Assembly (NCBI RefSeq): GCF_000402035.1
Contig: NC_021289.1
Coordinates: forward strand, 1,116,001-1,180,000
Reading direction: 5' to 3'
Length of the DNA: 64,000 nucleotides
From: Caballeronia insecticola
Lineage (GTDB): Bacteria; Pseudomonadota; Gammaproteobacteria; Burkholderiales; Burkholderiaceae
The notes below the pieces were generated by a model that saw only the letters and a list, made by a program, of their open reading frames with translations, searched no databases and was not told the DNA's origin. This document shows, in pieces, positions 53,467-64,000 of the stretch (within the stretch, counting starts at the first letter, position 1; every line of letters begins with the position of its first letter). The position numbers were made by a program, and so were the translations under genes.

Positions 53467-53651
53467 GTCTCGCTCCCTTATTCGCATTTTTAGTCGTATG
53501 AATCGCCGTGCCTGCCATTGTTCAGCCGGACGCAATTCTGAATTATGTGTCGATCGTAACAAAATAACTGGACCTTGTCCCGGCCGGATGTTTAAATATC
53601 TGTATTGATCGTCACATAAATCGCGAACTACTACTTTTGGAGCGTATTCCC

Positions 53652-53924
53652 ATGAAATCGACCTTGTCCGCGCTTGCCGCCGCGTTGTTGCTTGCCAGCC
53701 CGTTGGTCACGTTTGCCCAGACCGACGCGCCGGCTGCGTCGCCCGCGCCGTACTCCGTCTTCGTCGATCAGCCCACCGGTTTCACGTTCGTCAAGATGCC
53801 GGCCGGCTGGAAGTTCGTCGGCGCGGTGTCGAAGGAAGACGCGCAGCATGTGCCCGCCAATGTGCTGACCTCGGTGCTGCCCGCCGATTCCGCCCGTCCG
53901 ATGAACACCGCATCGGTCAAGTAA
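53652..53924 (+). CDS. Small secreted hypothetical protein
   Basis: A 90-residue protein with a clear signal peptide (KSTLSALAAALLLASPLVTF, cleavage near AFA-Q at about residue 22). The mature part is ~65 residues including FVDQPTGFTFVKMPAGWKFV. No family is recognised. GGAG lies 10 nt before the ATG. Its last 157 bp are antisense to the tail of the mutase reading frame. Confidence 0.7.
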   Translation: MKSTLSALAAALLLASPLVTFAQTDAPAASPAPYSVFVDQPTGFTFVKMPAGWKFVGAVSKEDAQHVPANVLTSVLPADSARPMNTASVK

Positions 53925-55990
53925 GCCTTCTCGCTCTTTTGAATCAGCGAGACCAGTCGCTCGACAATCGCATGCATCGTCGAGCCTGGACCGAATATGT
54001 CGGCGACGCCGAGCGTGCGTAACGTGCGCGCATCGTCGTCCGGCACGATTCCACCGACAACTACGGGCGCCCGCACATTGCGCGCGGCGAGTTCCCGCAT
54101 GAGTGCGGACACCAGCGCGACATGCGCTCCCGCCAGCGACGACACACCGACCACATCGAAGCATTCCTCTGCAGCAAGCGTGGCGGCCTGCACAGGCGAT
54201 GCGAATAGTCCGCTCGTCGTCACTTGAAAACCCGCGTCCGCGAGCGCAGCGGCAATCACGCTGGCGCCGCGATCGTGTCCGTCCAGTCCCAACTTTGCGA
54301 TCAGCACGCGCGGCTTTCTGCGTAGCGTGTGCGCGAGACGCGCGACCTGTGCGCATGCGGCGCGCCATGCATCATCGTCGCGGCGAGTGGCGCCATAAAT
54401 TTCGGACGATGCGCCCGCGATCTGCACATGGCGCGGCCACACCGCTTCGAGCGCGCGCGTGCATTCGCCGACCGTCGCTCGCGCGCGCATGCAATCGAGC
54501 GCGGCTTCGAGCAGGTTGCCATCGTCGTCGCGGGCGGCGCGCGTCAGAGCGGCCAGTGTTGAGCGCACGCGTGTATCGTCGCGGCGGCGTCTGACTTCGG
54601 CGATTCTGCGCGACTGCTGCACGCGGACGCGCTCGCCGTCGATGGCGAGGCACGCGGGCGCGTCGTCATCGCATTCGGACGCGACAAACGCGTTCGTGCC
54701 GACGATCACCTGTTCGCCCGCATCGATGCGCGCCTGCGTCGCCGCCGCGCTCTCGCGGATACGACGCTGCACCCAGCCGGTGCGTATCGCTTCGAGCGCG
54801 CCGCCGTGCGCATCGATTTCGTCGATGAGCGCGCGCGCCTGATCGACGAGCCCCGCCGTCAGCGATTCCATCATGTATGAGCCGGCCCACGGATCGATCA
54901 CATCGCACAAGCCCATTTCGTGCTGAAGAATCAACTGCGTGTCGCGCGCAAGCTGCGCCGCCGATGCCGACGGCAACGCAAGCGCCTCGTCATGCGCGTT
55001 CGTGTGCAGCGACTGCGTGCCGCCGAACACGGCAGCCATCGCCTCGACGGTCGTGCGCACGATATTGTTTTGCGTGCGCACCGGGCTCAGCGACCAGCCC
55101 GATGTCTGACAATGCATGCGCAGCGCGCGGCTCTTCGCCGTGCGCGCGCCCTCTTGTTCCGCGATGTCCGACCACATGAGCCGCGCCGCACGCAGCTTCG
55201 CGATCTCCGTATAGAAGTCCGTGCCGGTGCCGAAGAAAAAGCTCAACTGCTCGCAGACGGTATCGGCGCACAGGCCGCGCGAACGCATCGAACGAAGGTA
55301 CGTGCGCGCGTTGGCGAAAGTCAGCGCCAGTTCCAGCGATGCATCCGCGCCCGCTTCCTGAAAGTGATAGCCGGACACGGAAAGCGCCTTGAAACGCGGC
55401 ATGTGCTCACCGAGAAACCGCGCAATATCCGCGACAATGCGCAGCGACGGTTCCGGCGCGAACACCCACGCGTTGCGCACCATGAACTCCTTGAGGATGT
55501 CGTTCTGCACGGTGCCCGAAAGCGATTCCATTCCGATGCCGCGCTCCTCCGCCGCAACGATGAACGCCGCGAGCACGGGCAGCACGGCTCCGTTCATCGT
55601 CATCGAGACGGAGACGCGTTCGAGCGCGATGCCTTCGAACAGACGCGTCATATCGTCGACGGTATCGATCGCCACGCCCGCCAGGCCGACATCGGCGCGC
55701 GCCGCTTCATCGGTGGAATCGTAGCCGCGCTGGGTCGGCAGATCGAACGCAACGGACAACCCTTGCGCGCCGCGTTCGAGCGCGCGGCGAAACGCGAGAT
55801 TGGAATCGGCGGCGTCGGCATAGCCCGCATACTGGCGAATGGTCCACGGCTTGCTCGTGTACATCGACGTATAAGGTCCGCGCACGAACGGTGCGACGCC
55901 GGGCTGCGAATGCAAGTGCGCAAGGCCGTCGAGATCGGCCGATGTATAGAGCGGCTTCAGCGGCACGCGTCGATGCCGAACGCCGCTCAT
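53768..55990 (-). CDS. Adenosylcobalamin-dependent acyl-CoA mutase, methylmalonyl-CoA mutase type
   Basis: A 740-residue single-chain mutase. The catalytic barrel has RGPYTSMYTSKPWTIRQYAG, VAFDLPTQRGYDS, VSMTMNGAVLPVLAAF and LRMHCQTSGWSLSP. The C-terminal B12 domain has DGHDRGASVIAAAL (axial His ~572) and VVVGGIVPDDD. It interconverts succinyl-CoA and methylmalonyl-CoA. A related acyl substrate is possible because the usual YATMY reads YTSMY. Its start overlaps the LnmK-like gene (ATGA). About 55 residues beyond the usual family end run antisense over a small secreted-protein gene. No MeaB-type chaperone gene is nearby. Confidence 0.82.
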   Translation of the reverse strand: MSGVRHRRVPLKPLYTSADLDGLAHLHSQPGVAPFVRGPYTSMYTSKPWTIRQYAGYADAADSNLAFRRALERGAQGLSVAFDLPTQRGYDSTDEAARADVGLAGVAIDTVDDMTRLFEGIALERVSVSMTMNGAVLPVLAAFIVAAEERGIGMESLSGTVQNDILKEFMVRNAWVFAPEPSLRIVADIARFLGEHMPRFKALSVSGYHFQEAGADASLELALTFANARTYLRSMRSRGLCADTVCEQLSFFFGTGTDFYTEIAKLRAARLMWSDIAEQEGARTAKSRALRMHCQTSGWSLSPVRTQNNIVRTTVEAMAAVFGGTQSLHTNAHDEALALPSASAAQLARDTQLILQHEMGLCDVIDPWAGSYMMESLTAGLVDQARALIDEIDAHGGALEAIRTGWVQRRIRESAAATQARIDAGEQVIVGTNAFVASECDDDAPACLAIDGERVRVQQSRRIAEVRRRRDDTRVRSTLAALTRAARDDDGNLLEAALDCMRARATVGECTRALEAVWPRHVQIAGASSEIYGATRRDDDAWRAACAQVARLAHTLRRKPRVLIAKLGLDGHDRGASVIAAALADAGFQVTTSGLFASPVQAATLAAEECFDVVGVSSLAGAHVALVSALMRELAARNVRAPVVVGGIVPDDDARTLRTLGVADIFGPGSTMHAIVERLVSLIQKSEKAYLTDAVFIGRAESAGSTEVSTLAGTCCASSFDTAPTNFQPAGILTNVKPVG

Positions 55991-56796
55991 GCGCGCCTCC
56001 GCGCCTTGTGCGTGAGCACATCGGCGATCTTTTTGCCGTCGCTCGCGCGCTCGATCTCGCACCAGTGCGCGACGCGCGTATCGTCGATGCACGCGCGGCG
56101 GAACGTCAGCCGCAAGCTATCGCCCACGTCGATGTTGCCGTGATAGTGCAACTCGCGCGACACAAGCGTGGGCGTGTCCGCAAGACGCCACGTCTGCCAT
56201 TCCGCGCGATCGACGAAGCCCTGAAAACTCGCGAAGTAGAGAAAGTCGGCGCCGTTGAAATCGTTATAGGGGCACGGAAAAAAATCGATGGACGCGCACG
56301 CTGTCTCGGGCAAATCCGTATCGGCTTCGCGCAGGCGAAAGCGGCGCGCGGCGTCCTGCATGTCGGCGATATGCGCATTCATCGGCGCGATATGGCCTCG
56401 AAGATTCGCGAAGCTCGCACGCGCGACCGAGCGGTTAGTCCGCGATTCGGTGCGGTGCACGAAGGTGGACATCATCGACACATGGGCGATGGTTCCAGTC
56501 GTGCCCGCCACGCGATGCTCGCTGAAATGCCGCACCGGTCCGATGCGCGAAAGCTCGCTGCGAATGCGGAACGTATCGTTCTCGCGTAGTTCGTGCATGC
56601 CGTTCGCGCGCAGTCTGATCGACGTGAAGGCGGCATAGGCGCGGCTGCCTTCATCGGAGATGAAATCGCTTTGCGTCTCGCGCGAAAGCGCATCCCAGTG
56701 ACGGTCGCCGCATTCCTTGAGCAGCCAGTTCTCCGAGAGCCCGGCGATGTTCAACTGCGGCATGCCCGCGCGATACGTATCGTCGTGATGAGGCAT
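55987..56796 (-). CDS. LnmK-like (Pnap_2097 family) acyltransferase/decarboxylase, double hot-dog fold
   Basis: A 269-residue protein beginning with MPQLNIAGLSENWLLKECGDRHW, the signature I recall for LnmK-type and Pnap_2097 proteins of natural-product clusters. LnmK moves methylmalonyl from CoA to an acyl carrier protein and decarboxylates it to propionyl. Here the gene is coupled by ATGA to a methylmalonyl-CoA mutase gene and starts 9 bp after the flavoprotein gene. No carrier protein gene is in the window, so the acceptor is unknown. Family assignment is from memory of motifs. Confidence 0.65.
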   Translation of the reverse strand: MPHHDDTYRAGMPQLNIAGLSENWLLKECGDRHWDALSRETQSDFISDEGSRAYAAFTSIRLRANGMHELRENDTFRIRSELSRIGPVRHFSEHRVAGTTGTIAHVSMMSTFVHRTESRTNRSVARASFANLRGHIAPMNAHIADMQDAARRFRLREADTDLPETACASIDFFPCPYNDFNGADFLYFASFQGFVDRAEWQTWRLADTPTLVSRELHYHGNIDVGDSLRLTFRRACIDDTRVAHWCEIERASDGKKIADVLTHKARRRA

Positions 56797-56805
56797 GAGG
56801 TTCCT

Positions 56806-58119
56806 TCACGCGCACGTGATCGAAGCACGCGAAGCAGGCGACGCAAGCAACACGCGATCCGGCGCGCTCGCACGTTCCGCGCAGATGGCATCGACGATAT
56901 ATTGCGCATCGCGCGCCACGCCCGAAAAGCGCCCCGAACCCCACGTATGCAGCCACGGCAAGCCGACGAAATACAGTCCCGGCACGGCCGTCACGCCACG
57001 CATGTGCGACGGATACCCGCGCCCGTTGAAGACCGGCGCATCGAGCCAGCCGAAGTCCGGCGTGAAGCCGATGCACCACACCACCGCAGCGATACCGCTC
57101 GCCTGCAAATCCAGTTCCGCGCGTTCGTGCGACGGTTGCCAGAGCGGTTCGTAACGCGCGGCGGGCGGCGCGTCGATGCCGTGCTTCTCGATGAAGCCGT
57201 CGATGCTCGCGTTGATGCGGTTATAAGTATCGTCCGCGTCGTCGAGATTCGCGCGCAGGTTCGGTGCGAAACGCAGCTTGCCGTCGCGGAAATCTTCCAG
57301 CCGGCCGAACAACTCCATGCCTTCGAGCGCGAAGCGGCGCAGGTCGATGTCGCGTCCGCCGTCGCGGCCGGTCACGTAATGATTGGTGTTGTCGCGCACG
57401 CCTTCGCGCAACGGATGATCGGTCACGGGCATGTCGTAATAGCGCATGTCCGCGAGCCAGTCGACCACATCGCGGCCGCGATAAAAGCGCGCACAACGCG
57501 GCGCCTCGCCGACCGCGAGATGCACCTTGCGTCCCGACAGATGCAAATCTTCCGCGATCTGCGCGCCCGACTGACCCGAGCCGACCACGAGCACGGCGCC
57601 AGGCGGCAGCGCGTCGGCATTGCGATACTCCGACGACTGCACTTGGACGACGCTCTGCGGCAAACGCTCGGCCATGCGCGGCACGATCGGCGTGTGATAG
57701 CCGCCCGATGCAACCACGATCTGATCCGCCGTGAACGTGCCGCGCGTGCTCGTCACGATGTAACGCGCTTGCGCATCGCGCGTCACGCGCGTGACCGCCG
57801 CGCCTTCGAGCACCGGCGCGTTCACCTTGGCGATGAACGCATCGAGATACGCGATGATCTCGTCCTTCTTCATGAAGCCGTGCGGGTCCGCGCCGTCATA
57901 CGCATGCCCCGGCAGCGCGCATTGCCAGTTGGGCGTCACGAGACAGAACCTGTCCCAGCGTTGCGTGCGCCATGTGTGCGTCACGCTGTGCTTTTCGAGC
58001 ACGAGATGATCGATGTTCGCCTGCTGCAAAAAATAGCTGACCGAAAGCCCCGCCTGCCCGCCGCCGATGACGATCACGCTGTAATGCGCCGCCGTCTGGA
58101 TTGAATCGATATTCGACAT
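56806..58119 (-). CDS. MSMEG_0569-type flavin-dependent oxidoreductase (Nit1C cluster)
   Basis: A 437-residue FMO/YUCCA-like flavoprotein. It has the FAD site IGGGQAGLSVSYFL, the NADPH site VVGSGQSGAQIAEDL and WCIGFTPDFGWLD near the C-terminus. In Nit1C clusters this enzyme is conserved beside the nitrilase; its substrate is unknown. AAGGAG lies before ATG 58119. It follows the MSMEG_0570 gene by 56 bp that contain a tandem repeat. Confidence 0.82.
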   Translation of the reverse strand: MSNIDSIQTAAHYSVIVIGGGQAGLSVSYFLQQANIDHLVLEKHSVTHTWRTQRWDRFCLVTPNWQCALPGHAYDGADPHGFMKKDEIIAYLDAFIAKVNAPVLEGAAVTRVTRDAQARYIVTSTRGTFTADQIVVASGGYHTPIVPRMAERLPQSVVQVQSSEYRNADALPPGAVLVVGSGQSGAQIAEDLHLSGRKVHLAVGEAPRCARFYRGRDVVDWLADMRYYDMPVTDHPLREGVRDNTNHYVTGRDGGRDIDLRRFALEGMELFGRLEDFRDGKLRFAPNLRANLDDADDTYNRINASIDGFIEKHGIDAPPAARYEPLWQPSHERAELDLQASGIAAVVWCIGFTPDFGWLDAPVFNGRGYPSHMRGVTAVPGLYFVGLPWLHTWGSGRFSGVARDAQYIVDAICAERASAPDRVLLASPASRASITCA

Positions 58120-58149
58120 TTCCGCTTCTCCTTCGACAAATTCGACGAT

Positions 58150-58182
58150 TGAGTCATTCGTGAGTCATTCCTGAGTCATTCG
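58150..58182. repeat. Three tandem copies of an 11-bp unit at the MSMEG_0570 stop codon
   Basis: TGAGTCATTC is repeated three times, with a single variable base after each copy. The last copy includes the stop codon of the gene ending at 58176; the other two fill much of the 56-bp gap to the flavoprotein gene. Confidence 0.8.
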
Positions 58183-58460
58183 AGCCCGAGCACGGTCACG
58201 CGCGCGTCGTGCGTTTGCGTGAAGCGGCGCGCGTCTTCTTCGATGCGTGCAAGTTGATCGAGCGCGGCCGAACACGCGAAGCCGTATTTCTCGCGCACAC
58301 GCTCCGAGCCGATGTTCAGCGCCTTGCGCGAACGCGCGACGAAATCGCCGATGGCATAGCTTTCGCCCGCCGTGAAAAATTCGCCGACAACCGTCGATGG
58401 CGAATAGCAATTCGCTTCGACGCCATCCGGCCAACGTATCCGAAAGTGCATGACTGGCAT
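58176..58460 (-). CDS. MSMEG_0570-type nitrogen-starvation response protein
   Basis: A 94-residue protein with MHFRIRWPDGVEANCYSPST near the start and SERVREKYGFACSAALDQL in the second half, as in the small MSMEG_0570 family of Nit1C clusters. The function is unknown. GAGGCC precedes the ATG and the glycosyltransferase stop is 2 bp upstream. Confidence 0.82.
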   Translation of the reverse strand: MPVMHFRIRWPDGVEANCYSPSTVVGEFFTAGESYAIGDFVARSRKALNIGSERVREKYGFACSAALDQLARIEEDARRFTQTHDARVTVLGLE

Positions 58461-58462
58461 GT

Positions 58463-59647
58463 TCAGGCCTCGCCAATGAGTTGATTACGGGTGAGTTGCT
58501 TGCTGTAGATGTCGAGATGACGCAGGGCGCTGGCTTGCCACGTAAAGCGCTTCAATAGCGCAGGCACCGCATGATCGAAGTCGATGCCGCCGCTGCCTTC
58601 GAGCGCGTGCGACAGCGCATCGGCGATCGAATGTGCATCGTGCGGATCGGCGAAGCGGCAAGTTGCATCGTCGAGATATTCGGTGAACGGCGCGATACGC
58701 GACACGACAACCGGCCGCGCGCTCGCCAGCGCCTCGAGCACGACGAGCCCGAAGCCTTCGCGCAGCGAGACCATCGAGACCGCATCGGCCACGCGGTAGA
58801 GCGCGGGCATTGCGGCATCGTCGAGTGCGCCCGTGACGATCACTGGCGTGTTCGTGCCGCTCACGTCGAGTTGCAATTCGGCGGCGCGCGCGAGAAAGCG
58901 GCGCGTGTAGGCATCGTGATCGAGCAGGCTCGCGCCGCCCGCAAGCACGAGTTGCGCGGACGGTCGTTGCGCACGCAATAACGCGAAGGCTTCGAGCAGC
59001 ATCGACGTATTCTTGCGTTCCTCGATGCCGCCCACCGCAAGCACGACCGGTCCCGCGCCGATGCCGAGGCGCTCGCGAAGCGTTTGCTTGTCGCGGTCCG
59101 CGCACGCACCGTAGCGCGATGCGTCGATGCCGTTCGCGACCGTTTGCGCCGCTATGCCGTAGGCGTCGCGCATCGTGCGCGTCCATGTGTCGCTCACGCA
59201 TAGCACCGTATCGGCGTCTTGCCATGCGCGGCGTTGCCAGCGCGCGAGTTGCGCATCGTCGAAATGATCGAGATGATGAACCGTGCGGACGAAGCCGCCG
59301 ACCGCACCTTGCTGCTTCAACTCGGCAAGCGCATTGCCGCCGATGCTGTCCTGCGCATGCAACACGTCGAAGCGCGCTGCATGCTCATCCGCGAGCGCCA
59401 GCTTCAATGCGCGAATGCGTTCATCGACCATGCCGACGAGTCCTCGCACACCCGCAACCCGCGCCAGCACGATACGGCAAGGCGATGCGCGAAACATCGC
59501 CTCACCTGCGCGCGCGGGTGCGAACACGGTGACATCGTGTCCGAGTTTGTGCAATGCGCGTGCGAGTTCGAGCGTATGCACAACGCCGCCGCGCGGATTC
59601 ACCGAATGCGTGAGCAGCGCGATACGCAGCGGGTTTATCGCGCGCAT
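58463..59647 (-). CDS. MSMEG_0565-type GT4 glycosyltransferase (Nit1C cluster)
   Basis: A 394-residue GT-B enzyme. It has LRIALLTHSVNPRGGVVHTLELA at the start and SLREGFGLVVLEALASARPVVV as donor site. It is conserved in the nitrilase cluster and suggests a glycosylated product. ATG 59647 overlaps the preceding gene by 13 bp; a start nine codons earlier is possible. Confidence 0.82.
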   Translation of the reverse strand: MRAINPLRIALLTHSVNPRGGVVHTLELARALHKLGHDVTVFAPARAGEAMFRASPCRIVLARVAGVRGLVGMVDERIRALKLALADEHAARFDVLHAQDSIGGNALAELKQQGAVGGFVRTVHHLDHFDDAQLARWQRRAWQDADTVLCVSDTWTRTMRDAYGIAAQTVANGIDASRYGACADRDKQTLRERLGIGAGPVVLAVGGIEERKNTSMLLEAFALLRAQRPSAQLVLAGGASLLDHDAYTRRFLARAAELQLDVSGTNTPVIVTGALDDAAMPALYRVADAVSMVSLREGFGLVVLEALASARPVVVSRIAPFTEYLDDATCRFADPHDAHSIADALSHALEGSGGIDFDHAVPALLKRFTWQASALRHLDIYSKQLTRNQLIGEA

Positions 59648-60594
59648 ATGAACGGCTCCTCGCGCAAGTTCCACAACAGCGCGGAATCGCGGCCCCGCGT
59701 CACCACGACTTCGTGCGACGCATCCACTTCGCCGATCACGGCGCTTGCCAGCGAACGGGATGCAAAGCGCGCGAGCACTTCATCGACATGATCGCGCCGC
59801 ACGGAAAGCACGAAGCCGAAGCTCGGAAACGCCGCGAGCCATCGCTCAAAATCGACATCGGCGGGACGCGGCAACGCATCGAGATCGATGCGCGCGCCGA
59901 CCTTCGAGCATTCGAGCAACATCAACGCGGTGCCGAGCGCGCCTGCCATGCTGATGTCCTTCGCGGCATCGCACAGGCCGTCTTCGGCGAGCGCGGGCAG
60001 CAGTTCGAAATCGGCGCGGGCGCGGGCTTCGGGTGCACCCACCGATGCGTTCCAGAACGGATACGGTTCTTCAAACTTGCCGCGCAGATCGACGGCCATC
60101 ACGAGCGCATCGCCGGGGCGCGCGTCGAAACTCGTCAGCAGCTTGCGCGCCCGTCCGACGATCGCGACCGCGAGTTGCGCGCCGTCGCTGCGCACGTTGC
60201 TATGGCCGCCGACAATCGGCACGCCATACGCCGCCGAGGCCGCTGCCATGCCCGCGAGAACTGCGCCGGCGTCATCGGCATTGCCGCTCCACAATGCATC
60301 GACGACGGCGAGCGGGCGGCCGCCCATCGCGTAGATATCGCTCACGTTCACCATCACGCCGCTATAGCCCGCGAACCACGGCATCGTGCGTACGAAGTCG
60401 CTGACGAGGCCTTCGATTGCGAAGAGCAGGAAGCCGTCGCCATCGGGAATCGCGGCGCAGTCGTCGCCGATTGCTACAGGTGAAGCGCCCGCCGCACCGA
60501 CCGGCAAACGCGCGAGAACCTGCGAGATATCGTGCTTGTGACGAAAGCCGCGGCTCTCGCGCAAACGCTCGACCAACGCAGCGAGCGAGTTCAC
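59635..60594 (-). CDS. sll0787-type AIR synthase-like (PurM fold) protein
   Basis: A 319-residue PurM/ThiL-fold protein. VAIGDDCAAIPDGDGFLLFAIEG is the metal/ATP-binding strand, and GGHSNVRSDGAQLAVAIVG follows. It probably activates or phosphorylates a small molecule with ATP in the Nit1C pathway. I choose GTG 60594, which overlaps the upstream stop as GTGA. The long frame further upstream is shadow of the GNAT gene. Confidence 0.8.
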   Translation of the reverse strand: MNSLAALVERLRESRGFRHKHDISQVLARLPVGAAGASPVAIGDDCAAIPDGDGFLLFAIEGLVSDFVRTMPWFAGYSGVMVNVSDIYAMGGRPLAVVDALWSGNADDAGAVLAGMAAASAAYGVPIVGGHSNVRSDGAQLAVAIVGRARKLLTSFDARPGDALVMAVDLRGKFEEPYPFWNASVGAPEARARADFELLPALAEDGLCDAAKDISMAGALGTALMLLECSKVGARIDLDALPRPADVDFERWLAAFPSFGFVLSVRRDHVDEVLARFASRSLASAVIGEVDASHEVVVTRGRDSALLWNLREEPFICAR

Positions 60595-61151
60595 GGCAGC
60601 CTCCGCGCCAGCGCGACGAAACCGCTTTGCGGCGTGACGCATGGCGGATACGCATCGAGTTGCGCGCGCATCAGATGATGTGCGCGGCCGAAGAGCGTCT
60701 CTTCCTGCTGCGTGTCCCAGCGCAAGCGCCGGAACAGCGGCACGTTCTGCGCCTGCACATGCGCAAGGAACGTCTCGCAGCCGAGTGCATGCGCGCTCGA
60801 CACCGCGAGCCGGATCAGCGTCGAACCGATCTTGCCGTGCGAACGAAACGCCGCATGCACTGCAAGCCGCGAGCCGAACCACACGCCCGGTTCCGTCTCA
60901 TGAATGCGCACCGTGCCGACCACTTGCTCCGGCATGCCCGCGACGCAACTCAGCGCGACCAGCAGTTGTGCGCGTTCGTCGATGTCGTCGCGATCGTCGC
61001 CGACGAACACGCCCTGCTCGATGCAGAACACCGCGCGCCGCAGCTTGTACGCTTCGTTCGCTTCCCACGCCAGCGTCGCCCATTTCACGCGGTATTCGAC
61101 CGGCGTGAAGTCGAGTTCGAACGCATCGCCTTCCATGGCTTCGACGAACAT
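60591..61151 (-). CDS. MSMEG_0567-type GNAT N-acetyltransferase
   Basis: A 186-residue GNAT protein. The acetyl-CoA loop appears as HAAFRSHGKIGSTLIRLAVSSA, with ETFLAHVQAQNVPLFRRLRW following. In some relatives this domain is fused to the PurM-like protein; here the two genes are separate but overlap by 4 bp. It lies 1 bp downstream of the radical SAM gene. Confidence 0.82.
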   Translation of the reverse strand: MFVEAMEGDAFELDFTPVEYRVKWATLAWEANEAYKLRRAVFCIEQGVFVGDDRDDIDERAQLLVALSCVAGMPEQVVGTVRIHETEPGVWFGSRLAVHAAFRSHGKIGSTLIRLAVSSAHALGCETFLAHVQAQNVPLFRRLRWDTQQEETLFGRAHHLMRAQLDAYPPCVTPQSGFVALARRLP

Positions 61152-61152
61152 G

Positions 61153-62265
61153 TCACACCTCGTACGATGAAAGCGACGAACACGCGCCGCATTTGCCGCA
61201 GCCCGCCTTGATATCGGCGGAACGCATGCCCGCCTGCGACAGCATCGCGCCGATGGGCATCAGCACCGAGCGCATGAATTCGGGCGCGGGCGCGGGATGA
61301 TCTTCGAGCGGCGTTCCGCTGATCGGCACGAACGGCACGACGAACGGGTACACGCCGAGCGCGATCAACGCGCGCGCCATATCGACGATGGCGTCCGCGC
61401 TATCGCCCAGTCCCGCGAGAATGTACGTGCTCACCTGGCCGCGTCCGAACACGGCGACCGCCGCCTCGAATGCCTCCATGTAGCGCGACACCGGCACGCT
61501 CGCCTTGCCCGGCATGACGCGTTCGCGCACCGCAGGCGTCACCGCTTCGAGATGCATGCCGAGCGTATCGATGCCGCTCGCCTTCATGCGTTCGAACCAG
61601 CGGTCGTCGTCGGGCGGCTCGCATTGCGCCTGAATCGGCAGATTCACTGCCGCCTTGATCGCGAACGCGCTTTCGCAAAGAATCTGCGCGCCGCGATCTG
61701 ATGTCGGCGGCGTGCCGGTGGTCAGGACCATGTGCTTCACGCCATCGAGCAGCACGGCCGCGCGCGCCACTTCGGCAAGCTGCTCCGGCGTCTTGCGCGC
61801 AATCGTGCGGCCCGCCGCGAGCGATTGCCCGATCGCGCAGAACTTGCACGACTTACGGCGGCTCTCGTAACGGATGCACGTTTGCAGCACGGTGGTCGCG
61901 AGCACATCGGCGCTGTGCAACGTGGCGATGTGCGAATACGGCACGCCGTCGAGCGTCTGCATCGCGTAGAAGCGCGGCGCTTGCGGAAAGCGGATGCTCG
62001 CAATCGGAATCGTGTTGCGCATCAGCGCGCTGTTGCCGTTCGCATCCGGTGCGGCCGCGACGAACGGCGAATCCCACGCGGTGCTCGTGTGCACGGGCAC
62101 CATGATCGTGACGCCATCGACAGTCACCGCCTTGTGATCCGACGGTCCCGCGCCGCCGCGCCGGCTCGCCACGCCCGCGCGCGGATCGGCGAGCCGCAGT
62201 CCGGTCGACTGCAATTCAGTCATCAATTGCCGGCTCGATGCCGGCAGGTTCTCGAAGGCGCTCAT
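61153..62265 (-). CDS. MSMEG_0568-type radical SAM protein
   Basis: A 370-residue radical SAM-like enzyme of the Nit1C cluster. The cluster-binding cysteines would be Cys 130, 140 and 143 ([14 protein letters not shown]), i.e. C-X9-C-X2-C in place of the classic C-X3-C-X2-C. A C-terminal GCGKCGAC with Cys 356, 359 and 362 may hold a second cluster. Its start overlaps the nitrilase gene by 50 bp. Confidence 0.82.
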
Positions 62266-63223
62266 CGTCGCGGGTGTCCTTGAAAGAGGTGACGGGCGAA
62301 GCGGGCCGGTCGTTGATCGCGAGACTCAGCAACTCGGGACGCGCGTAGTGACCGACCGAATCCATCATGCGTTTGCGCTTCGTGATCAGCGACATGTCGA
62401 GATCGGCGATCACCATGCCCTCGCCTTCGCGCAACGGCTCCGCGAGATGCTGGCCTTCGGGCGAGACGATCGCCGTGTTGCAGCCGCCGCGCAATGCGCG
62501 TTGCAGGTTAGGATCGGGCGTGATGGCTTCGATCTGCGCATCGGTGAGCCAGCCCGTCGCATTGACGACGAAGCAGCCCGATTCCAGCGCGTGATGACGG
62601 ATCGTCACTTCGATCTGCTCCGCGAAGATCGGACCGACGAGCGAGCCGGGAAACTGGCTGCAATGGATCTCTTCGTGCTGCGTCATCAATGCATAGCGCG
62701 CGAGCGGGTTGTAGTGCTCCCAGCACGCGAGCGCGCCCACGCGGCCCACATTCGTATCGACGACCTTCAGGCCCGCGGCATCGCCTTGGCCCCAGATCAT
62801 GCGTTCATGAAACGTCGGCGTGATCTTGCGGCGCTTGAGCAGCAGCCGGCCATCGGTATCGAAGACGAGTTGCGTGTTGTACAGGCTGCCGTGATCGCGC
62901 TCGTTCACGCCGAGCACGACGACCATGTTCGCAAGCCGCGCGTGTTCGGCGACCGCCTGCGTGACCAGCCCCGGCACGATCACCGCCTGCTCGTAGAGCT
63001 TCATGTGATCCGCGCCCATTGCGACCGGCGTGCGCACGAACGAGAAGTACGGGTAATACGGCACGAAGGTCTCGGGGAACACGATCAGCTGCACGCCTTG
63101 CGCCGCGGCTTCGTCGATGGCCGTGCACACGCGATCGAGCGTGCCGCCCGGACGCTCGAAGTCCGGCGCGATCTGCACCGCGGCGGCGCGCACGATGCGC
63201 TTCGTTGAAGAGGCATCGGCCAT
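62216..63223 (-). CDS. Nit6803/Nit1-type nitrilase
   Basis: A 335-residue nitrilase. The triad is Glu 51 ([12 protein letters not shown]), Lys 133 (LKRRKITPT) and Cys 167 ([15 protein letters not shown]). It hydrolyses a nitrile to the acid and ammonium. Nit1C clusters have been linked to cyanide assimilation in Pseudomonas. ATG 63223 is the family start and lies 5 bp after the preceding stop. The frame extending further upstream is spurious. The C-terminal tail overlaps the next gene. Confidence 0.9.
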
Positions 63224-63228
63224 GATCG

Positions 63229-63711
63229 TCACACGGTCCACGTATGAATGACGAGCGCGTTCTCCTTGCGATGAAGCAGCTGGAGATCGAGCACGTCGAG
63301 CGGGTTGATCGGACGAATACCTTCGATCAGCGAGGCTTCGCCGTGTCCGTAGAGCGCCTGCAACGCGAAGCGGCACGCATAGACCTTGCCGCCTTCGGCC
63401 ATGAACTTCTGCAGTTGCTTGTTGAAGTTGAGATGGCCGGGGAAGGCTTCGTCGCCGAGCGTCGGGAAGCCGCGTTGCAGGCCGAGCGTGACGCCGGGGC
63501 CGTACAGCAGCACGGAAGTATCGAAGCCCTTGCGTTGCAGGCGTGTCGCCTGAAGGAGATTGACGAAGCCGATCGAGCCTTCGAACGCGACCGTATGAAA
63601 CGTGACGAGCGCCTTTTCGCCCGGCTCGGCCTTGACGTCTTCGAAGACCTTTTCTTCGTAGTCGACCAGATAATCGCCGTTCTTGTGAAGCGGTTGATTG
63701 ACTGCGGGCAT
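63229..63711 (-). CDS. MSMEG_0572-type nitrogen-starvation response protein (first gene of Nit1C operon)
   Basis: A 160-residue protein of the MSMEG_0572 family, with a DsrE-like look ([52 protein letters not shown]). The function is unknown; relatives are induced on nitrogen starvation. ATG 63711 fits the family although the GGAGA site is very close. A start at 63756 is less likely because it leaves only about 10 nt after the predicted transcript start. Confidence 0.8.
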
Positions 63712-63777: not shown

Positions 63778-63792
63778 GCAACGGATATGCCA
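63778..63792 (-). promoter_or_regulatory. Sigma-54 (-24/-12) promoter of the Nit1C operon
   Basis: On the minus strand TGGCATATCCGTTGC fits the sigma-54 consensus, with GG and GC separated by exactly 10 nt. It lies 67 bp upstream of the first start codon. Sigma-54 control agrees with the nitrogen-starvation association of the cluster. Confidence 0.65.
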
Positions 63793-63845: not shown

Positions 63846-64000
63846 TGCGGAACGCGAAAATTTTTTAGCGCGACTTGAACGCACGGGCTTGCGCCGCGTT
63901 TCGCGCAAGCCATGCCGCACTTGAGCACGCACGATTTCAGCGCAGCCAGGCATGCGCGTGGTGCGCGGCACACCGAAGCCGTGCATCGATGCGATCAATG

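Follow-up and report, generated by a model that had tools for sequence, protein, structure and literature searches.

The Nit1C operon of Caballeronia insecticola carries two genes beyond its conserved set: one codes for a relative of the polyketide enzyme LnmK, the other for an acyl-coenzyme A (CoA) mutase. We analysed this operon in a stretch of 64,000 nt, termed here the window (GCF_000402035.1, NC_021289.1, positions 1,116,001-1,180,000; all coordinates below are window positions), which lies on contig 3 of a 6.96 Mb genome in 5 contigs. Ten genes occupy 53768-63711, all on one strand as had been predicted, here the minus strand: eight Nit1C genes, then the LnmK-like gene (55987..56796) and finally the mutase gene (53768..55990). 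All ten could be given family names, their profile scores passing the curated NCBIfam cut-offs. With a probability of about 0.58, we favour the reading that the LnmK-like gene and the mutase gene are a real optional module of this nitrogen-starvation operon, feeding a propionyl group into the Nit1C pathway.

In the texts available to us, Nit1C is described as first recognized in 2005 and present in several phyla; where this was tested, nitrogen starvation induces it strongly, and it has been linked with cyanide assimilation and redox state, the full pathway not being known (PMC1199592, PMC11049912, PMC6039565). Against this background, two extra enzymes with predictable chemistry hint at a building block that may enter the pathway, and the module is a concrete clue to the product of a widespread, long-unexplained operon. 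The predicted chemistry also offers an isotope handle (13C from succinate) for finding that product, and the module places the LnmK family in everyday bacteria of soil and plants, where its surroundings show no obvious carrier protein.

Linkage of the LnmK-like gene and the mutase gene to Nit1C

The association of the LnmK-like gene with Nit1C is near certain, and the recurrence expected in the original prediction was very strongly borne out. Among 58 genomes of the genus sample, 38 have a Nit1C flavoprotein over the cut-off (39 copies) and 14 have an LnmK-like gene; all 14 of the latter (13 fetched loci and the window) stand behind the Nit1C flavoprotein and ahead of a mutase. Among 398 Burkholderiaceae genomes, the LnmK-like gene was found in 62 (59 over the cut-off) and the Nit1C flavoprotein in 107: 61 genomes have both, one has only the LnmK-like gene, 46 only Nit1C and 290 neither (Fisher p 3.9e-41, the genomes not being independent). 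The lone genome with an LnmK-like gene and no Nit1C (G092) holds a fragment at a contig start. In 60 of the 62 the LnmK-like gene is directly 3' of the flavoprotein on the same strand, with a model-to-model gap of 59-116 bp; the two non-adjacent cases are the G092 fragment and G146, where the LnmK-like gene and mutase lie upstream on the same contig. Nit1C genes adjoin in 40/40 and a mutase in 38/40 of the loci that we fetched from the 48 LnmK-like places outside the genus. These family searches scored the best candidates per genome (six for the LnmK-like protein, four for the flavoprotein, three for the mutase), and absences in them are slightly less firm than in the searches that scored all candidates (the LnmK-like protein in the genus, the mutase in the window's genome and the mutase in a set of 40 genomes discussed below).

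In this family the mutase is the next gene after the LnmK-like gene in 56 of the 62 cases. The six others comprise three contig ends (G092, G369, G377), two LnmK fragments (G087, G263) and one real absence (G122). Conversely, setting aside the genus groups g12 and g2, whose mutases mostly score 867-905 bits, 66 mutases reach at least 550 bits, and 56 of these lie directly behind an LnmK-like gene (gaps of 28-160 bp in 55 and 1206 bp in one); the remaining ten are three cases with the LnmK-like gene or the mutase at a contig end (G092, G369, G377), five mutases of 779-810 bits, a second copy in G285 and a partial gene in G079. None of the 46 Burkholderiaceae genomes with Nit1C and no LnmK-like gene yielded a mutase of at least 550 bits among the three best candidates scored in each.

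The association extends well beyond the family. A scan of GTDB species genomes returned 231 LnmK-like relatives, and we retained the 80 best; some of these loci come from genomes of the family sample (L198=G035, L195=G146, L202=G122, L218=G011), and the two sets are thus not independent. Nit1C genes stand beside the LnmK-like gene in 75 of these best 80, drawn from Alpha- and Betaproteobacteria and one gammaproteobacterium: at least four Nit1C genes in 73, three in L198, and in L209, whose contig spans 4.8 kb, the flavoprotein alone. Five loci depart from this: four are from Stappia (L174-L176, L179) and the fifth (L177) is at the edge of a contig. A mutase is present at 20 of the best 80 loci. 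In a phylum sample of 398 genomes, the LnmK-like protein had a match in 10, six of them over the cut-off: four with Nit1C (the window and L261-L263) and two without (L264, L265, 131 bits). Of 59 plasmid records with a Pnap_2097 match nine were inspected: in Rhizobium, Agrobacterium, Tabrizicola and Methylocystis plasmids Pnap_2097 accompanies Nit1C and the inspected stretch lacks a mutase, in those of Thalassospira, Roseobacter and Azospirillum it lies outside Nit1C, and two further records are unannotated. Over 125 loci, LnmK-like distances correlate with those of the nitrilase (r 0.83) and the flavoprotein (r 0.75). The distance and column analyses described below in connection with the GNAT acyltransferase were made without four loci (L045, L105, L121, L134). 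The LnmK-like gene is thus an optional ninth gene of Nit1C, and the mutase a tenth, mostly betaproteobacterial one. The two had been proposed as a pair: they do occur jointly in most Burkholderiaceae loci, but the LnmK-like gene stands alone in alphaproteobacterial and some betaproteobacterial Nit1C clusters. The Azospirillum loci (L180, L182-L186, L191, L192) have a gene order of their own, with the flavoprotein between the radical SAM and GNAT genes and the LnmK-like gene after MSMEG_0570.

The arrangement had been thought undescribed, which is only partly so. The Nit1C of the Atlantis II nitrilase contig (PMC4751646, 2016) lists a flavoprotein, a 'conserved hypothetical protein' and a putative methylmalonyl-CoA mutase in the same order; in the portion of that text available to us the hypothetical protein is not named as LnmK-like, and neither its function nor its recurrence is discussed. 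Within the open-licence PubMed Central (PMC) literature, as far as its texts were accessible, this is the only one that we found with this gene order, and subscription papers on LnmK relatives may be missed. The word 'methylmalonyl' is absent from the main texts of PMC1199592 and PMC11049912, and Pnap_2097 is not mentioned in the open-licence PMC papers found on MSMEG_0565-0570.

The LnmK-like protein and the mutase

The LnmK-like protein scores 269.7 bits with the LnmK model TIGR04098 (cut-off 100) and 296.7 bits with TIGR04099 (cut-off 125), and we place it in the Pnap_2097 family as a double hot-dog protein. Its AlphaFold model, computed from a 61-row alignment, has a mean predicted local distance difference test (pLDDT) score of 94.7, and a fold search of the PDB with this model returned the seven LnmK entries at ranks 1-7 (template modelling (TM) score 0.80-0.83, E 2e-16 or lower), followed by hot-dog thioesterases acting on acyl carrier protein (acyl-ACP thioesterases). 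A profile search against solved LnmK (E 4e-12) placed Tyr54 on the tyrosine of PTYLAF and Asn181 on the asparagine of RDVNG; Tyr54 is found in 138/138 aligned rows and Asn181 in 137/138, the remaining row being gapped. We take LnmK to be acylated at Tyr62, its catalytic tyrosine site. The sections of PMC9396626 at hand describe LnmK as an acyl transferase and decarboxylase in one, with a family known from rare antitumour polyketides, while the accessible part of PMC8666670 has LnmK using an asparagine loop and cites a title in which LnmK is 'specifying (2R)-methylmalonyl-CoA'. The window protein shares with LnmK (leinamycin) and LrgK (largimycin) the NCBIfam domain model, the predicted double hot-dog fold, the catalytic tyrosine and asparagine, and a proposed methylmalonyl-CoA substrate. 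It differs from them in being 18-19% identical and some 50 residues shorter, in having no carrier protein found nearby and in belonging to another pathway.

The second enzyme matches the mutase model NF006944 with 960 bits (cut-off 876) and has a fused B12-binding domain (PF02310, 78.3 bits). The tyrosine, arginine and histidine equivalent to positions 89, 207 and 244 are kept in 72/72 cluster mutases, and the aspartate and histidine of the B12 motif DxH in 69/72 (some genomes are counted twice). We take these positions to follow the numbering of the P. shermanii mutase, in which Tyr89 and Arg207 presumably bind the carboxylate of the dicarboxylic substrate and His244 is catalytic. In a tree of 26 cluster mutases and 17 others, made without the G092 mutase (L283), all 26 cluster mutases fall on one side of a branch (support 95/91), and this side includes sequences from Derxia, Methylotenera, Methylophilus and the gammaproteobacterium Oceanobacter. 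We consider it likely that the operon enzymes are indeed a mutase and an LnmK relative acting on a methylmalonyl substrate.

Mutase complementarity

The distribution of mutases across genomes points to a metabolic link between the two genes. The window's genome, with all candidates scored, contains a single acyl-CoA mutase, that of the operon. We searched for mutases, again scoring all candidates, in 40 of the 80 named genomes that bear the LnmK-like gene. Each of the five genomes with a cluster mutase (L188, L190, L203, L206, L207) has exactly one mutase match, at the cluster, and 33 of the 35 without a cluster mutase have a canonical mutase (at least 850 bits) elsewhere, one of these 33 (L174, Stappia) not being a Nit1C locus. 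Of the two that lack a canonical mutase, L196 has a 573-residue relative and L202 an IcmF-type match only (307 bits, in a 1134-residue frame). Alphaproteobacteria probably often have a canonical mutase in any case, and all the alphaproteobacterial genomes searched bear the LnmK-like gene; the telling cases are therefore the betaproteobacterial ones, namely three Methyloversatilis, Rhodoferax and a Burkholderiales bin, each combining a lone LnmK-like gene with a canonical mutase outside the cluster. The simplest reading of these genomes is that the LnmK-like protein would need methylmalonyl-CoA, and that the cluster may supply a mutase to genomes that otherwise lack one.

Mutases of this kind form the 2R epimer of methylmalonyl-CoA, and the product of the operon mutase would therefore suit an LnmK enzyme directly. 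The window's genome contains a cobalamin adenosyltransferase. It has no methylmalonyl-CoA epimerase over the cut-off (best 28.7 bits against 114.95) and no MeaB over the cut-off (best 21.2 bits against 240.75). Since no epimerase passed the cut-off, the 2R product would be barred from the carboxylase route, although the carboxylase itself was not searched for.

A proposed route and its alternatives

We infer the direction of the reactions, the propionyl acceptor, the user of the acyl group and the product as follows. The B12-dependent mutase would convert succinyl-CoA to (2R)-methylmalonyl-CoA; the LnmK-like enzyme would take the methylmalonyl group via the conserved Tyr54, decarboxylate it with the Asn181 loop and pass on the propionyl group; and the Nit1C pathway would then consume this group, with the GNAT acyltransferase NitE as its most plausible user, to give a propionylated version of the Nit1C product. 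Taken singly, the data are best read as a propionyl group entering the Nit1C product, at a little better than even odds. The part given to the GNAT is a guess, to which two rearranged loci point. In Ralstonia sp. NFACC01 (L195/L121), a GNAT-LnmK-mutase block lies upstream of a complete Nit1C cluster with a second GNAT; the extra GNAT frame overlaps the LnmK-like gene by 4 bp, and it is 67% identical to that of the window, against 59% for the more diverged copy in Nit1C. In Caballeronia sp. dw_19 (L045/L198), a mini-cluster of MSMEG_0572, GNAT, flavoprotein, LnmK-like gene and mutase, with its own sigma54-like site, lacks the nitrilase, radical SAM, AIR-like and MSMEG_0570 genes, and a full Nit1C without the LnmK-like gene is located elsewhere in the genome (L058). 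A more specific version is tentative, falling somewhat short of even odds: the LnmK-like protein may be a dedicated propionyl donor, free of any carrier protein, for a biosynthetic Nit1C pathway with an acylated product, with the group moving from its tyrosine (or through CoA or a housekeeping carrier) to the NitE product, such that a propionylated metabolite would replace the form made by clusters without the LnmK-like gene. The original prediction of a product that joins the nitrilase pathway to a propionyl or methylmalonyl unit thus fits the sequence, the predicted fold, the catalytic residues, the complementarity and the lack of any epimerase above the cut-off; the activity and the product would be as we infer above, and the two genes are not an inseparable pair.

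Several observations weigh against the favoured reading. The LnmK-like protein is only 18-19% identical to solved LnmK, and Nit1C occurs without the pair in 46 of the 107 Burkholderiaceae genomes that have it. Cupriavidus campinensis (L202/L112, G122) is the one clear exception to the complementarity, with an LnmK-like gene in Nit1C and only the IcmF-type mutase. A carrier protein, the known acceptor of LnmK, was not found in the Nit1C-linked loci with a small profile run on frames of 50-200 residues. The same profile gave a match next to the LnmK-like genes that lie outside Nit1C in Thalassospira and in three of the four Stappia loci (L137, L174-L176, L266); it had been built including L137, L174 and L266 (not L175 and L176), and it missed the annotated carrier of L142. 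As for the GNAT, no alignment column separates clusters with the LnmK-like gene from those without it (in untrimmed frames), and the strongest separating columns are in the nitrilase, MSMEG_0572 and the flavoprotein. We also rejected two candidate signals in the GNAT: its seemingly faster divergence in clusters without the LnmK-like gene became small once false N-terminal extensions were trimmed, with MSMEG_0570 showing an equal effect in the opposite direction, and an FeeM-like signature proved not to be specific, occurring in 15/20 clusters without the LnmK-like gene and 14/28 with it.

Other explanations of the pair can be weighed on the same evidence. In E. coli, the mutase Sbm (ScpA) and the decarboxylase YgfG (ScpB), whose fold is unrelated to LnmK, make propionyl units from succinyl-CoA, and their operon includes a MeaB-type GTPase, of which the window's genome has none over the cut-off. 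The operon pair, a mutase and a decarboxylase performing the same chemistry, might likewise be a general shunt from succinyl-CoA to propionyl-CoA that is switched on under nitrogen starvation and feeds odd-chain acyl units, such as 3-hydroxyvalerate in polyhydroxyalkanoate. Such a shunt would sit well with the sigma54-like operon promoter and with the Synechocystis mutant of sll0783 (the MSMEG_0572 homologue), which according to the accessible text of PMC3901256 is impaired in polyhydroxybutyrate under nitrogen starvation; but it leaves unexplained why 60 of the 62 LnmK-like genes of the family are directly behind the Nit1C flavoprotein, why the gene is kept in Nit1C even where the genome has a canonical mutase, and why LnmK itself, in the relevant part of PMC9396626, is an acyl transferase besides a decarboxylase, and we regard it as unlikely.

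It is quite unlikely that the LnmK-like protein is a plain hot-dog thioesterase or acyltransferase for another acyl group, with the mutase running towards succinyl-CoA and disposing of methylmalonyl-CoA. The acyl-ACP thioesterases do follow in the fold search and no carrier protein was found nearby, yet all seven LnmK entries come first in that search at E 2e-16 or lower, the tyrosine and asparagine of LnmK are conserved, and no epimerase over the cut-off would connect the mutase with a propionyl-CoA carboxylase (the carboxylase not being searched for). That the two genes are mere passengers inserted behind Nit1C and kept by linkage would agree with their absence from those 46 of 107 genomes and with two Caballeronia clusters (L063, L064) in which the flavoprotein directly precedes the neighbour that flanks the pair in the window. 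Given an LnmK-like gene within Nit1C not only in Betaproteobacteria but also in Alphaproteobacteria and one gammaproteobacterium, the retained catalytic residues, the complementarity of the mutase and the two rearranged loci in which the pair stays with a GNAT, we hold such passengers to be highly improbable.

Control of the operon

A sigma54-like -24/-12 element (TGGCATATCCGTTGC, 63778..63792, minus strand) lies ahead of the operon. Searching the 300 bp ahead of MSMEG_0572 with the sigma54-type pattern TGGC[AC][CT]N5TTGC, we found the element in 42/54 loci with the LnmK-like gene, 20/27 without it and 49/74 other loci, against 27/3120 random 300-bp stretches; within the LnmK-like gene or up to 300 bp before its frame, 0/52 loci have one. 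A MocR-type regulator (GntR and aminotransferase domains) is encoded in the same genome just past the window end at 64000 (L287:1022-2485), divergent from the operon. Leaving out four loci with short flanks, such a divergent regulator occurs within 1.5 kb upstream in 50/53 loci with the LnmK-like gene, 26/27 without it and 62/71 others. Both the element and the regulator therefore belong to Nit1C as such, pair or no pair, and they are compatible with a single nitrogen-controlled transcript that would cover all ten genes. The Pseudomonas nit genes have a sigma54-dependent regulator, NitA, according to the portion of PMC11049912 available; the loci considered here mostly have the MocR-type regulator instead (NitA was not searched for). 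A MocR-type regulator next to a sigma54-like promoter is an unusual combination.

Layout of the operon and its surroundings

The Nit1C gene set is complete, with the branch-1 nitrilase, MSMEG_0572, radical SAM, GNAT, AIR-like, MSMEG_0570 and MSMEG_0569 genes each over the cut-off. Compared with the known versions (that of Podar 2005, the Pseudomonas nit genes, and gpr of M. smegmatis, MSMEG_0565-0572), the window has all eight genes, including the glycosyltransferase, and two further ones at the end. In order of transcription on the minus strand these are the MSMEG_0572/Sll0783 family gene (NitB, 63229..63711, TIGR04044 286.8 bits), whose start we placed at MPAVN, which is also found in other loci; the Nit6803-type nitrilase (NitC, 62216..63223, TIGR04048 580.9 bits); the MSMEG_0568 radical SAM protein (NitD, 61153..62265, TIGR04043 607.2 bits); the MSMEG_0567-type GNAT acyltransferase (NitE, 60591..61151, TIGR04045 239.1 bits); the sll0787 AIR-synthase-like protein (NitF, 59635..60594, TIGR04049 475.5 bits), which shares a GTGA overlap with the GNAT; the MSMEG_0565 glycosyltransferase, an optional member (58463..59647, TIGR04047 509.7 bits); the MSMEG_0570 family protein (NitG, 58176..58460, TIGR04042 131.8 bits); and the MSMEG_0569 flavin-dependent oxidoreductase (NitH, 56806..58119, TIGR04046 694.3 bits). 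In Burkholderia a glycosyltransferase between ORFs 5 and 6 of Nit1C is on record in the accessible texts (PMC1199592, PMC11049912, PMC6039565). The putative methylmalonyl decarboxylase/propionyl transferase and the mutase complete the row.

As predicted, 9 bp separate the end of the flavoprotein (56806) from the LnmK-like ATG at 56796, and the LnmK-like stop shares an ATGA with the mutase ATG (55990-55988). The claim of tight spacing throughout is accurate for the short gaps and overlaps and fails for the MSMEG_0570-MSMEG_0569 gap of 56 bp. The mutase frame does run to a stop at 53768, but its conserved body ends earlier, near residue 686 (~53933), where the alignment to most relatives stops. 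Its last ~54 residues are antisense to a converging small open frame on the plus strand (53637..53924), which has a signal-peptide-like start, judged by eye, and no Pfam match. This frame is the border of the two-gene module: in the Caballeronia clusters L063 and L064, which lack the pair, a homologue is directly 3' of the flavoprotein, and the comparison indicates that the pair sits between the flavoprotein and this converging neighbour. An apparent 'mutase scar' in these two clusters was rejected, as most of it proved to be the conserved neighbour read in antisense.

An Rfam search of the window gave zero matches. Away from Nit1C, the genome encodes a second MSMEG_0569-like oxidoreductase (G000 C2:855541-856731; L288:5434-6759) with 372.5 bits, below the cut-off, and matches of this kind (~360-435 bits) occur in 34 of the 58 genus genomes. 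At the other end of the window, 467-21753 holds exopolysaccharide-type genes, among them glycosyltransferases, a flippase-like protein, a Wzc-like kinase and a bacterial sugar transferase.

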